Notes under the pieces: model-generated
Seen by the model: only the letters and a program-made list of their open reading frames with translations
What the model was told of the DNA's origin: nothing
The model's database searches: none
Part shown: positions 25,239-28,669 of the stretch, in pieces
Layout of the letters: each line of letters starts with the position of its first letter
Numbering within the stretch: position 1 is the first letter of the stretch
Made by a program: the position numbers and the translations under genes
Assembly: GCA_007695115.1 (NCBI GenBank)
Contig: REEK01000160.1
Span: 1 to 40,884 of the forward strand
Direction of reading: 5' to 3'
DNA from: Sphaerobacteraceae bacterium
GTDB lineage: Bacteria; Chloroflexota; Chloroflexia; Thermomicrobiales; Thermomicrobiaceae
Length of the DNA: 40,884 nucleotides

Positions 25239-25275
25239 TTCGCGAGTCAATAGTGGGAAGCAGACAGAGAGGTTG

Positions 25276-26070
25276 ATGCGCCCAATGGCGGATCAGGAAA
25301 AATCGCGAGGACGCCGTGCGCGTCGTGGTAAACAACGTCAGCAACGCGAAGAACAAGAGGCAAAACAGCGCCAGCGCTATATGATCGGCGGCGGGATCAT
25401 TGCCGCAATCATTCTGCTTATCGTGGTGCTAACCGTGATCGAATTTGTTGGTAACGGTGATGATGACGACGTGGCGGATGATGATTTTCCCCCGGTGGCT
25501 GCCGCTACATCGGATCACGGCGACATCAACGCAGAGCCGTATCTGCTCGGGGATCCGGACGCGCCGGTCCACCTGATCGAGTGGAGCGACTATCAGTGAC
25601 CAGGCTGCGGATTCTTCGCCCGTGAGGCGAAGCCACAGCTGGTGAGCGACTACATCGAGACCGGTCTGGTTTATCTGGAATACCGCGATTTCGCCCATAT
25701 CGGCGAAGAAACGATCCGTGCAGCCGAAGGTGCAGCCTGTGCTGCGGAGCAGGATCCAGATGCGTACTGGGATTACAACGAGACGCTGTATCAGAACCAG
25801 CACACGCCACCGGTGAACTCCGGGGGATATTCCGACAGCCGGTTGATCCAGATGGCCGAAGAGCTTGGCCTGGATGTCGAAGCCTTCGAATCATGTATGG
25901 ACGATGAGACCTATCGGGATCAGATCGAAGACAGCACAGAAGAGGCACAGGATACCGGAATCGCCAGCACGCCACAGTTCCAGATCAACGGCCGGATCGT
26001 GGAGTGGGAGAGCTACGAGCAGCTCGCTGCCGAGATCGATGCCGAGCTGGAAGAGGCCAGCGACGATTAG
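25276..26070 (+). CDS. Membrane-anchored DsbA-like thiol oxidoreductase, probable selenoprotein (in-frame UGA, UPGC active site)
   Basis: 264-residue product if the TGA at 25597-25599 is read as an amino acid. Order: basic N-terminus, one membrane helix (36-59), an acidic linker, then a DsbA/thioredoxin domain outside the membrane beginning LLGDPDAPVHLIEWSDYQ. Homologues continue with C-P-x-C; here codon 108 is TGA and the next codons are Pro-Gly-Cys, giving U-P-G-C. The frame after the TGA carries the rest of the domain in order: FFAREAKPQL, VYLEYRDFAHIG, the helical insert, and the cis-proline loop GIASTPQFQING. No other stop or frameshift occurs, and a terminator follows 27 nt after the final stop. 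A SECIS-like stem-loop starts right after the TGA. AGAGAGG stands 3 nt before ATG 25276; ATG 25285 is possible. Alternatives are a nonsense mutation or a sequencing error; conventional callers will split it at 25599/25642. Confidence 0.82.
25600..25642 (+). promoter_or_regulatory. Candidate bacterial SECIS element directly after the in-frame UGA
   Basis: The RNA after the TGA can fold into one stem-loop. Lower stem: CCAG (25600-25603) with CTGG (25639-25642), a bulged G at 25604, CTG (25605-25607) with CAG (25636-25638), then after a C/A mismatch GG (25609-25610) with CC (25633-25634). An ATT bulge (25611-25613) precedes a perfect 7-bp upper stem CTTCGCC/GGCGAAG (25614-25620 with 25626-25632). 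The loop is CGTGA, with GU at its second and third positions and 21 nt between the TGA and the loop. Bacterial SECIS elements need this: a short stem-loop in the coding region, a G among the first loop bases, and a bulge below the upper stem. Confidence 0.72.
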
Positions 26071-26097
26071 TTCCTGAAAACAGATCAAGCGAATGAA

Positions 26098-26130
26098 ACG
26101 GGAGGGCAATCACTGCTCTCCCGTTTTCTT
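26098..26130 (+). terminator. Rho-independent terminator after the DsbA-like gene
   Basis: An 11-bp stem (26098-26108 with 26114-26124, one G/T wobble) around the loop ATCAC is followed by TTTCTT. It separates the DsbA-like transcript from the tetR promoter starting at 26143. Confidence 0.88.
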
Positions 26131-26171: not shown

Positions 26172-26189
26172 TCGTTGTCAGGAGATAGT

Positions 26190-26792
26190 ATGAAAAAGAA
26201 AGTCCGAACCAAACGAGACGAAATTCTCTACGCGGCCTGGGGCCTGTTCGAATCGCAGGGCTATCACGCCACGGGAATCAACCAGATCATCTCCGAGAGT
26301 GGCGTGCCGAAGGGCTCCTTCTACCACTACTTCCCGGAAGGCAAGGAAGGTCTGGCGCTGGAGGCGATCGACGCCATTGGCGAGGGCATGATCGAGGGTG
26401 TGCGCGCGGCCTGTGCGACGCGGGATGATGTGGTTGAGGGCATCGTTAGCCTGCTCCAGATAATTGCGACCAAACTGGACGAGACAGAGTACCGGCATGG
26501 TGGGCCGCTGACGATTGTGTCACTGGAGACGGCGACTACCAATGAACGCATCAACGCCGCCTGTCGATCGGCATATCACGGTGTACAGGCTGAACTGGTT
26601 AAAAAGCTGATACAGGGTGGGTTCACTGAGAGCGATGCTCGTGACCTGAGCACGACGATAGTTGCCTCTCTCGAGGGCGGGATCCTCCTCAGCCGAGCGT
26701 TCCACAGCACTGAACCGATGGAGCAGACAGCCCGCCAGCTTCACAATCTCCTCAGCGAGCGGCGCAGAAGTGCCACAATCGCCAACAACTGA
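26190..26792 (+). CDS. TetR/AcrR-family transcriptional regulator
   Basis: 200-residue repressor with an N-terminal helix-turn-helix (RDEILYAAWGLFESQGY, then GINQIISESGVPKGSFYHYFP at about 25-46) and a variable ligand-binding C-terminal domain. The KGSFYHYFPEGKEGL form of the recognition region and the middle RHGGPLTIVSLE stretch are those of the LmrA/YxaF subgroup. The start is the ATG at 26190 with GGAGA 5 nt upstream. It stands first in an operon with an ABC exporter 30 nt downstream, and its probable operator lies in its own promoter. The likely inducer is a compound pumped by that exporter. Confidence 0.92.
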   Translation: MKKKVRTKRDEILYAAWGLFESQGYHATGINQIISESGVPKGSFYHYFPEGKEGLALEAIDAIGEGMIEGVRAACATRDDVVEGIVSLLQIIATKLDETEYRHGGPLTIVSLETATTNERINAACRSAYHGVQAELVKKLIQGGFTESDARDLSTTIVASLEGGILLSRAFHSTEPMEQTARQLHNLLSERRRSATIANN

Positions 26793-26822
26793 TCCTCACA
26801 GGAAGAGAGCACAGCTACCATC

Positions 26823-27839
26823 ATGACTTCGCATGCAGACGCGGCAATCCGCGTGGAAGACCTCCGGAAGACATTTGGTGATCTGGTTGCCCTGGATGGC
26901 GTATCGATGACGGCTCCGACCGGGAAAGTACTCGGACTGCTCGGTCCGAACGGGGCCGGGAAGACAACCCTCGTCCGTGTGGTGACGACATTGCTGCAGC
27001 CGGACAGCGGCCAGGCGTGGATCAACGGAATCGACGTGGTACGTGATCCGCAGCGGGCCCGGATGTCGTTCGGACTGGCCGGGCAGTATCCGGCTGTCGA
27101 TGAGAACCTGACCGGGTTCGAGAATCTGGAAATGGTTGGTCGACTCTACCGGCTCAGCCGCCGGGGTGCCCGGGATCGGGCGCATGAGTTGCTGGATCGC
27201 TTTGACCTGAGTGACGCTGGAGATCGGACCGCCAAGACTTACTCTGGCGGCATGCGGCGGCGGCTCGATCTGGCGGCGAGTATCGTCAGTGATGCACCGA
27301 TTCTGCTCCTCGATGAGCCGACCACCGGGCTGGATCCCCGCACACGAATGGGACTCTGGGAGCATATCCGGGAGCTGGTAGACAGCGGCGTGACGGTTCT
27401 GCTGACGACGCAGTATCTGGAAGAGGCTGATGAACTTGCCGATCGGATCGTGGTGATCGATCACGGCCGGATCATTGCCGAGGGCACGTCAACGCAGCTC
27501 AAGGCGCAGATCGGTGGAGACGTGATCCAGTTGCAGTTCCATCAGAGTGACCAGCTTAATCGTGCGGCGGGCGTTCTGGATCGGGTCGGCGCGGCCGATC
27601 CTCAGGTCGACGAATCGGAACTGACTTTGAAACTCCCAACCGGGGACGCGGTGAGCGACCTGATGGCCACGGTCCGACTTCTGGATACGCACGACATCAA
27701 ACCGGACGATCTGCGTATCCGGAAGCCATCCCTGGATGACGTCTTCATGACGCTTACAGGCCAGCCAGCTGACGCGTTCGACGACAACGGCGATTCGACC
27801 GGTTCTTCACAGAACCAGACAGCAGGAGCAGCAGACTGA
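26823..27839 (+). CDS. DrrA-like ABC exporter ATP-binding subunit
   Basis: 338-residue ATPase of the daunorubicin-resistance (DrrA) type. Walker A is GPNGAGKT (41-48), the signature is YSGGMRRRLDLAAS (about 139-152), Walker B and D-loop are ILLLDEPTTGLDPRT, and the switch region has LLTTQYLEEADELAD. A C-terminal domain of about 110 residues, ending with KPSLDDVFMTLTG, is typical of DrrA ATPases. The last 25 residues are a hydrophilic tail. It overlaps the permease gene by one base (TGATG), so the pair is coupled. It energises export of a hydrophobic compound; the substrate is unknown. Confidence 0.93.
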   Translation: MTSHADAAIRVEDLRKTFGDLVALDGVSMTAPTGKVLGLLGPNGAGKTTLVRVVTTLLQPDSGQAWINGIDVVRDPQRARMSFGLAGQYPAVDENLTGFENLEMVGRLYRLSRRGARDRAHELLDRFDLSDAGDRTAKTYSGGMRRRLDLAASIVSDAPILLLDEPTTGLDPRTRMGLWEHIRELVDSGVTVLLTTQYLEEADELADRIVVIDHGRIIAEGTSTQLKAQIGGDVIQLQFHQSDQLNRAAGVLDRVGAADPQVDESELTLKLPTGDAVSDLMATVRLLDTHDIKPDDLRIRKPSLDDVFMTLTGQPADAFDDNGDSTGSSQNQTAGAAD

Positions 27840-28669
27840 TGAGCGATCAGGCACTGAAACGACCAATCTCCCAGCCCCGGGATCGTCAACCGGACCTGAC
27901 CTCGACCTGGCGTGTGAGCTGGGTAATCTCCGACACGATTGTGATGACCAAACGCAACCTGATGAAGTACATCCGGTTGCCGCAACTGCTCGTATTTTCA
28001 ACGATCCAGCCGGTGATGTTCGTGCTGTTGTTCGCCTTCGTTTTCGGCGGAGCGATCGATACGCCGGGTGTCGATTACATCAATTTCCTGATTCCAGGGA
28101 TTCTGATTCAGTCAGTTGTGTTTGGCTCATCCCAGACGTCGGTTGGTCTGGCCGATGATCTCAACAAAGGGATGATCGACCGCTACCGATCGCTGCCGAT
28201 GACCCGGGGCGCGGTGATGGCCGGCCGGACCCTGGCTGATTCGATCCGTAACACGTTCGTCGTCTTTCTGATGCTCGGTGTTGGAACGGCGATCGGGTTC
28301 CGCTATCAGGATGGATTGCTGAAGGCACTGGCTGCGGTGGCGTTGGTGGTGCTGTTTGGCTACGCGTTTTCGTGGATCGCCGCGTTCATCGGCCTCCTGA
28401 CCAGAAACCCGGAGATCGCCGGGGTGGCCGGGTTCATCTGGGTCTTTCCGCTGGTCTTCGCCAGCTCGGTCTTCGTGCCAGTAGAGACGATGCCGTCATG
28501 GTTGCAAGCGTTTGCTGAAGTGCAGCCGATTTCGGCGACAGCGGATACGGTGCGGGCATTGATGCTCGGTACACCGGTCGAGAAACTCTGGTACATGCTC
28601 GCCTGGATGGCTGCGATTCTGGCGGTGTTTATCCCGCTATCGGTCTGGAAGTACCGGCGCCTGACCTAG
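27839..28669 (+). CDS. DrrB-like ABC-2 type permease
   Basis: 276-residue membrane subunit with a cytoplasmic N-terminus and six helices. Family marks are the first segment LVFSTIQPVMFVLLFAFVFGG, then FLIPGILIQSVVFGSSQTSVGLADDLNKGMIDRYRSLPM, the amphipathic loop before helix 2 of ABC-2 exporters, and FPLVFASSVFVPVETMPSWLQ near the end. It forms the channel of the exporter with the preceding ATPase. The gene ends 8 nt before the convergent methyltransferase, with no visible terminator. Confidence 0.92.
   Translation: MSDQALKRPISQPRDRQPDLTSTWRVSWVISDTIVMTKRNLMKYIRLPQLLVFSTIQPVMFVLLFAFVFGGAIDTPGVDYINFLIPGILIQSVVFGSSQTSVGLADDLNKGMIDRYRSLPMTRGAVMAGRTLADSIRNTFVVFLMLGVGTAIGFRYQDGLLKALAAVALVVLFGYAFSWIAAFIGLLTRNPEIAGVAGFIWVFPLVFASSVFVPVETMPSWLQAFAEVQPISATADTVRALMLGTPVEKLWYMLAWMAAILAVFIPLSVWKYRRLT

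Follow-up and report, generated by a model that had tools for sequence, protein, structure and literature searches.

Does the TGA that interrupts the gene at positions 25276–26070 of a 40,884-nucleotide contig from a Sphaerobacteraceae bacterium (the window, hereafter) end a broken gene, or does it encode selenocysteine (Sec)? The first-pass annotation had favored the latter, placing Sec at the active site of a DsbA-like oxidoreductase. Translation with TGA as U revealed an otherwise intact frame, as that annotation had described, with a single internal stop, the TGA at codon 108, and closure with a TAG at 26068–26070. The TGA falls exactly where the CxxC motif (here UPGC) begins, in the context WSDYQ-U-PGC-GFFAREAKPQL, and the translation also contains a TP (cis-Pro-type) loop, STPQFQING, so that the flanking residues and cis-proline loop named earlier are all present. 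One random stop has a chance of about 1/264 of landing on codon 108, and ten other homologous loci share a TGA there, so the placement is not due to chance. General recoding of TGA was considered and rejected, as it had been at the outset, since TGA is the terminal stop of 14 of the 22 longer ORFs in the window, taken from a hand-picked ORF list, and the code is therefore standard. The features of the locus are collected in Table 1.

Table 1 Features of the predicted selenoprotein gene and its surroundings in the window.
Feature	Position	Strand	Comment
Predicted Sec-containing DsbA/BdbD-like oxidoreductase gene	25276..26070	+	264 residues including U108; ATG 25285 is an alternative start
Predicted Sec codon (UGA) opening the active-site motif UPGC	25597..25599	+	TGA at the same codon in L010, L011, L016, L018, L021, L026, L033, L058, L059 and L073
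Candidate ribosome-binding site AGAGAGG	25266..25272	+	read from the sequence; purine-rich GGAAGGG/GAAGAAAGG at the equivalent place in the congeners
Intrinsic-terminator-like hairpin 3' of the gene	26095..26127	+	14 pairs, 7 of them GC, then a T-rich tail
Predicted single N-terminal transmembrane anchor	25384..25452	+	about residues 37–59; Kyte-Doolittle maximum of 3.0 over 19 residues at 37–41
Predicted bacterial SECIS element, hairpin starting at the UGA	25597..25646	+	apical stem CUUCGCC/GGCGAAG, loop CGUGA (25614–25632)

The gene may start at either of two codons, ATG 25276 or ATG 25285 (MADQ...). Among three congeners the first site is TTG in one and the second is ATG in all three, which suggests that ATG 25285 may be the true start. 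The ribosome-binding site proposed in the first reading is present, but its spacing of 3 nt to ATG 25276 and 12 nt to ATG 25285 is suboptimal in both cases, leaving the start less firm. The gene lies between a DnaJ-domain gene upstream and genes for a TetR regulator and an ABC exporter downstream; a terminator-like hairpin separates it from the latter, in agreement with the earlier claim that the gene has a terminator of its own. The downstream genes (26178–28666) encode a TetR-family regulator, then an ABC transporter ATPase and an ABC-2 membrane protein, and resemble an ordinary exporter operon.

The translated gene matched the Pfam families Thioredoxin_4 (PF13462; 115 bits, E 4.5e-33) and DSBA (PF01323; 45 bits, E 1.6e-11), and its best phmmer match among solved structures was BdbD from Bacillus subtilis (3eu3, E 6.4e-21). 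An AlphaFold2 model, built from 22 window and relative sequences with Cys substituted for Sec at position 108, had a mean pLDDT of 85 and consists of a long N-terminal helix (residues 13–58) followed by a DsbA fold in which helix 109–127 begins straight after residue 108. Foldseek searches with this model returned BdbD as the top PDB match (TM-score of 0.85 by target length), and the best fold matches overall were BdbD and DsbA. Pfam, phmmer and the model together thus reveal the attributes of the DsbA/BdbD group, namely a thioredoxin fold with an inserted helical domain, a CxxC at a helix start and a TP loop. The hydropathy profile contains one strong hydrophobic stretch, at about residues 36–59 and preceded by a basic N-terminus, and this stretch and the model helix support the membrane anchor proposed previously. 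There is no Cys ahead of residue 108 in the translation and hence no lipobox, indicating that the predicted anchor is a transmembrane helix and not a lipid.

Decoding of UGA as Sec requires dedicated machinery, and the first-pass annotation had asked for selA, selB, selD and a tRNA-Sec. All four were found in the window genome, a 3.68 Mb draft assembly of 186 contigs that is 98.5% complete: a tRNA-Sec gene with anticodon tca (UCA) at C176:378-474 (74.7 bits), SelB on contig C184 (361 bits), SelA on C178 (429 bits) and SelD on C39 (locus L049, G000:C39; 367 bits). The selD gene carries an in-frame TGA of its own, in the sequence CAGUASK and followed by G+C-rich hairpins, at the position where this enzyme usually has Sec. 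SelD of this genome is therefore itself a predicted selenoprotein, and its TGA provides a second, independent sign that the genome uses Sec. Among the eight other genomes carrying the Sec form, tRNA-Sec scored above the cut-off in six (G001, G004, G005, G023, G025 and G037; not G035 or G044) and SelB was found in seven, the exception being G004 (a bin at 70% completeness, with tRNA-Sec); none of the eight thus lacks both. SelB was also above the cut-off in 80 of 101 genomes of the class and, being so widespread, its co-occurrence with the Sec form is necessary and not discriminating.

To see which codon the relatives use, we searched 101 relatives and 61 genomes of the order with the translated protein (P0001). 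The motif codon is TGA at eleven loci, spread over nine genomes of the order (the window locus L009 and those in Table 1), and a Cys codon in the remaining 24 homologues, the alternation between TGA and Cys that is looked for in a bacterial selenoprotein. Both congeners that have the gene (L010 and L011, 77–79% identity) carry the TGA, as do eight further loci in the order; two additional genomes of the window genus, G002 and G003 (87% and 84% complete), gave no P0001 match. The relatives, whose comparison had been proposed at the start, therefore support the reading, with TGA in close relatives from separately assembled genomes and TGC or TGT in other homologues. The refutation tests set out in the first-pass annotation left the Sec reading standing. 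A contig scan with P0001 returned two close and three distant relatives, with a motif pattern written for a Cys codon. In one genome, G025, the motif codon is TGA in each of three DsbA-like homologues (L021, L058 and L059, with UPGC, UPHC and UPGC, respectively), and L073 (G023:C227) is a distant homologue with UPTC. The two nearest named relatives that we found are Thermomicrobiaceae MAGs whose isolate names start with CSSed; judged by these names they may be soda lake sediment MAGs like those described previously (PMC6146748, PMC6704655).

In a tree of the 35 homologues, parsimony placed six changes between Sec and Cys, with the direction unpolarised, and at least three of these fall on well-supported branches; L058, L059, L073 and L061 form long branches. 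Two close homologues from one genus differ at this position, as G005 (L016) has UPGC and G010 (L012) has CPGC, which points to a recent switch between Sec and Cys within that genus.

The 50 bases from the TGA fold with a minimum free energy of -24.8 kcal/mol (z of -3.66), and an apical hairpin with the loop CGUGN is found at equal distance in most Sec homologues. The region thus contains what is expected of a bacterial SECIS element, a hairpin just 3' of the UGA with a conserved apical-loop G, with modest covariation support. The mean fold z was -1.72 in the 11 Sec homologues versus 0.02 in the 24 Cys homologues (Mann-Whitney p of 5.7e-4, with related sequences counted as independent). In the Sec alignment 75.9% of cells were paired, and no more than 49% on sliding; all 11 Sec sequences have GC, AU or GU at pair 22-32. 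Covariation alone is weak, as the whole-structure score was reached by shuffles in 47 of 500 cases; the lower stem differs between lineages, and L033 and L058 show no significant fold individually. An Rfam scan of the region returned chance matches only and no SECIS match, with the qualification that Rfam models may not target bacterial SECIS elements.

Codons on either side of the TGA are under similar constraint. In pairwise comparisons of the three congeners Ka/Ks was 0.09–0.11 after the TGA, and it was 0.08–0.15 before it in the two computable pairs. The 12 codons that follow the TGA show zero amino-acid changes and a Ks of 0.27 compared to 1.2–1.5 elsewhere, a value that reflects small counts (2 synonymous changes per sequence pair, in three non-independent pairs). 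Such near-frozen synonymous sites are the expectation for a coding region that overlaps an RNA element. The downstream Ka/Ks of about 0.1 and the conserved TGA also agree with the initial view that the gene is not decayed.

The gene, its conserved TGA, the decoding machinery, the hairpin and the downstream selection are direct observations, and the Sec reading of the TGA at 25597–25599 is strongly supported. From the machinery, the conserved TGA and the SECIS-like hairpin we infer, as the first-pass annotation did, that Sec is inserted. The genome is a draft in 186 contigs and a single base separates the codon from TGC, so a sequencing error, a private nonsense mutation or a pseudogene might be suspected, with the true codon Cys or the gene dead. 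The same-codon TGA in ten other loci, nearly all from separate genomes, and the purifying selection downstream refute this explanation, which we regard as extremely improbable. Low-level UGA readthrough is common in bacteria and the part of the gene upstream of the TGA is conserved as well, which would fit readthrough by a near-cognate or suppressor tRNA (Trp or Cys, for example) or a functional 107-residue product. This, too, we judge to be very improbable, given that the genome has tRNA-Sec and SelB, that among homologues the codon alternates with Cys only and that a hairpin and near-frozen synonymous sites follow it; moreover, a 107-residue product would, according to the model, stop ahead of the catalytic motif and lack the greater part of the fold. 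The gene very probably encodes an extracytoplasmic, membrane-anchored thiol-disulfide oxidoreductase of the DsbA/BdbD fold with Sec as the attacking residue (U108-P-G-C111). SelA, SelD and tRNA-Sec would provide Sec-tRNA, which SelB would deliver to the UGA at 25597 under the guidance of the SECIS hairpin beginning there. Once complete, the protein, with the predicted topology, would be exported via its N-terminal helix, and exported proteins would have their dithiols and disulfides exchanged by way of its U-C selenylsulfide.

The gene immediately downstream of the DsbA gene of G005 (L016) encodes VKOR, and most family genomes, together with several others in the order, have a VKOR match no more than about 150 bases from the DsbA match. 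All five genomes of the window genus (G000 and G001–G004) are without a VKOR (PF07884) match, while one was found in every other genome of the family except one 54% complete bin. DsbB (PF02600) and the DsbD transmembrane domain likewise gave no match in the window genome. The Sec form and VKOR are found together in G005, G025, G035 and G037, so that loss of VKOR is not tied to Sec generally. A divergent partner beyond the reach of a Pfam match may exist in the window genus. Among the papers searched, none connects VKOR, DsbA and selenocysteine.

These data bear on whether the protein is a DsbA-type oxidase or instead a reductase or an isomerase of the DsbG/DsbC-like kind, or else an enzyme that handles peroxide or polysulfide. 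An activity other than that of an oxidase would accord with the closest family model, NF041057, which is classed as DsbG-like (PMC13188914), and with the finding of neither VKOR nor DsbB to reoxidise a DsbA. Against it, no DsbD/CcdA-type electron donor was found either, the relatives adjoin VKOR, the partner of an oxidase, and the AlphaFold2 model resembles BdbD and DsbA most closely and is free of an extra DsbG dimerisation domain; we therefore consider it unlikely, though deserving of serious attention. A further idea, which we hold to be quite improbable, is that in the window genus the Sec enzyme works as a DsbA without VKOR or DsbB: its more reactive selenol would be oxidised again either by a small oxidant acting directly (for example oxygen, peroxide or polysulfide) or with the help of an unknown membrane partner, in which case Sec would have replaced the protein partner in extracytoplasmic disulfide formation.

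The kind of selenoprotein described here is already known, and the novelty implied by the first reading is correspondingly lower. The Sargasso Sea and bacterial genomes have both yielded UxxC-containing DsbA-like and DsbG-like selenoproteins (PMC1088965, PMC1794560), 45 DsbA-like selenoprotein genes were counted across 41 organisms (PMC5029168) and a 2026 review lists a DsbA-like form 1 (PF01323, UxxC) and a DsbG-like form (model NF041057) (PMC13188914). The window protein shares with the DsbA-like forms, by description, the DsbA type, Sec first in the CxxC and a SECIS hairpin downstream, and differs in matching PF13462 (115 bits) better than PF01323 (45 bits). The best NCBIfam model was NF041057, the Rcas_1661 (seleno)lipoprotein, which covered residues 88–256 (E 2.1e-45) with 155.2 bits, below the cut-off of 190; ten relatives scored singly also all fell below 190 bits. 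That family likewise has a UxxC motif and both Sec and Cys forms, whereas the window protein has a transmembrane anchor and no lipobox Cys. The family takes its name from a Chloroflexota locus, Rcas denoting Roseiflexus castenholzii; none of the papers searched names Rcas_1661. These comparisons place the window protein on a divergent, transmembrane-anchored branch beside NF041057.

BdbD (3eu3/3eu4), the closest solved protein in sequence and fold, is a membrane-anchored DsbA that uses Cys and a DsbB-type partner, BdbC, whereas the window protein is predicted to use Sec and its genome has no DsbB match. In the DsbA-VKOR pairs, such as that of G005, the DsbA gene is homologous and in G005 likewise has Sec, but VKOR follows it directly, where the window has the TetR regulator gene and its genome no VKOR match. 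What is new is that relatives in the family keep VKOR, mostly adjacent to the DsbA gene, while the window genus has no detectable VKOR and the window genome no DsbB or DsbD either.

With this gene the Thermomicrobia gain a divergent, membrane-anchored branch of extracytoplasmic selenoproteins, one that automatic annotation would probably split or drop, as it scores under the NCBI family cut-off. The three or more switches between Sec and Cys within one small tree (six by parsimony) offer a good natural series on the benefit of Sec to a disulfide-exchange enzyme. Finally, since VKOR is absent from this genus and kept beside the same gene in relatives, it can be tested directly what the redox partner is.
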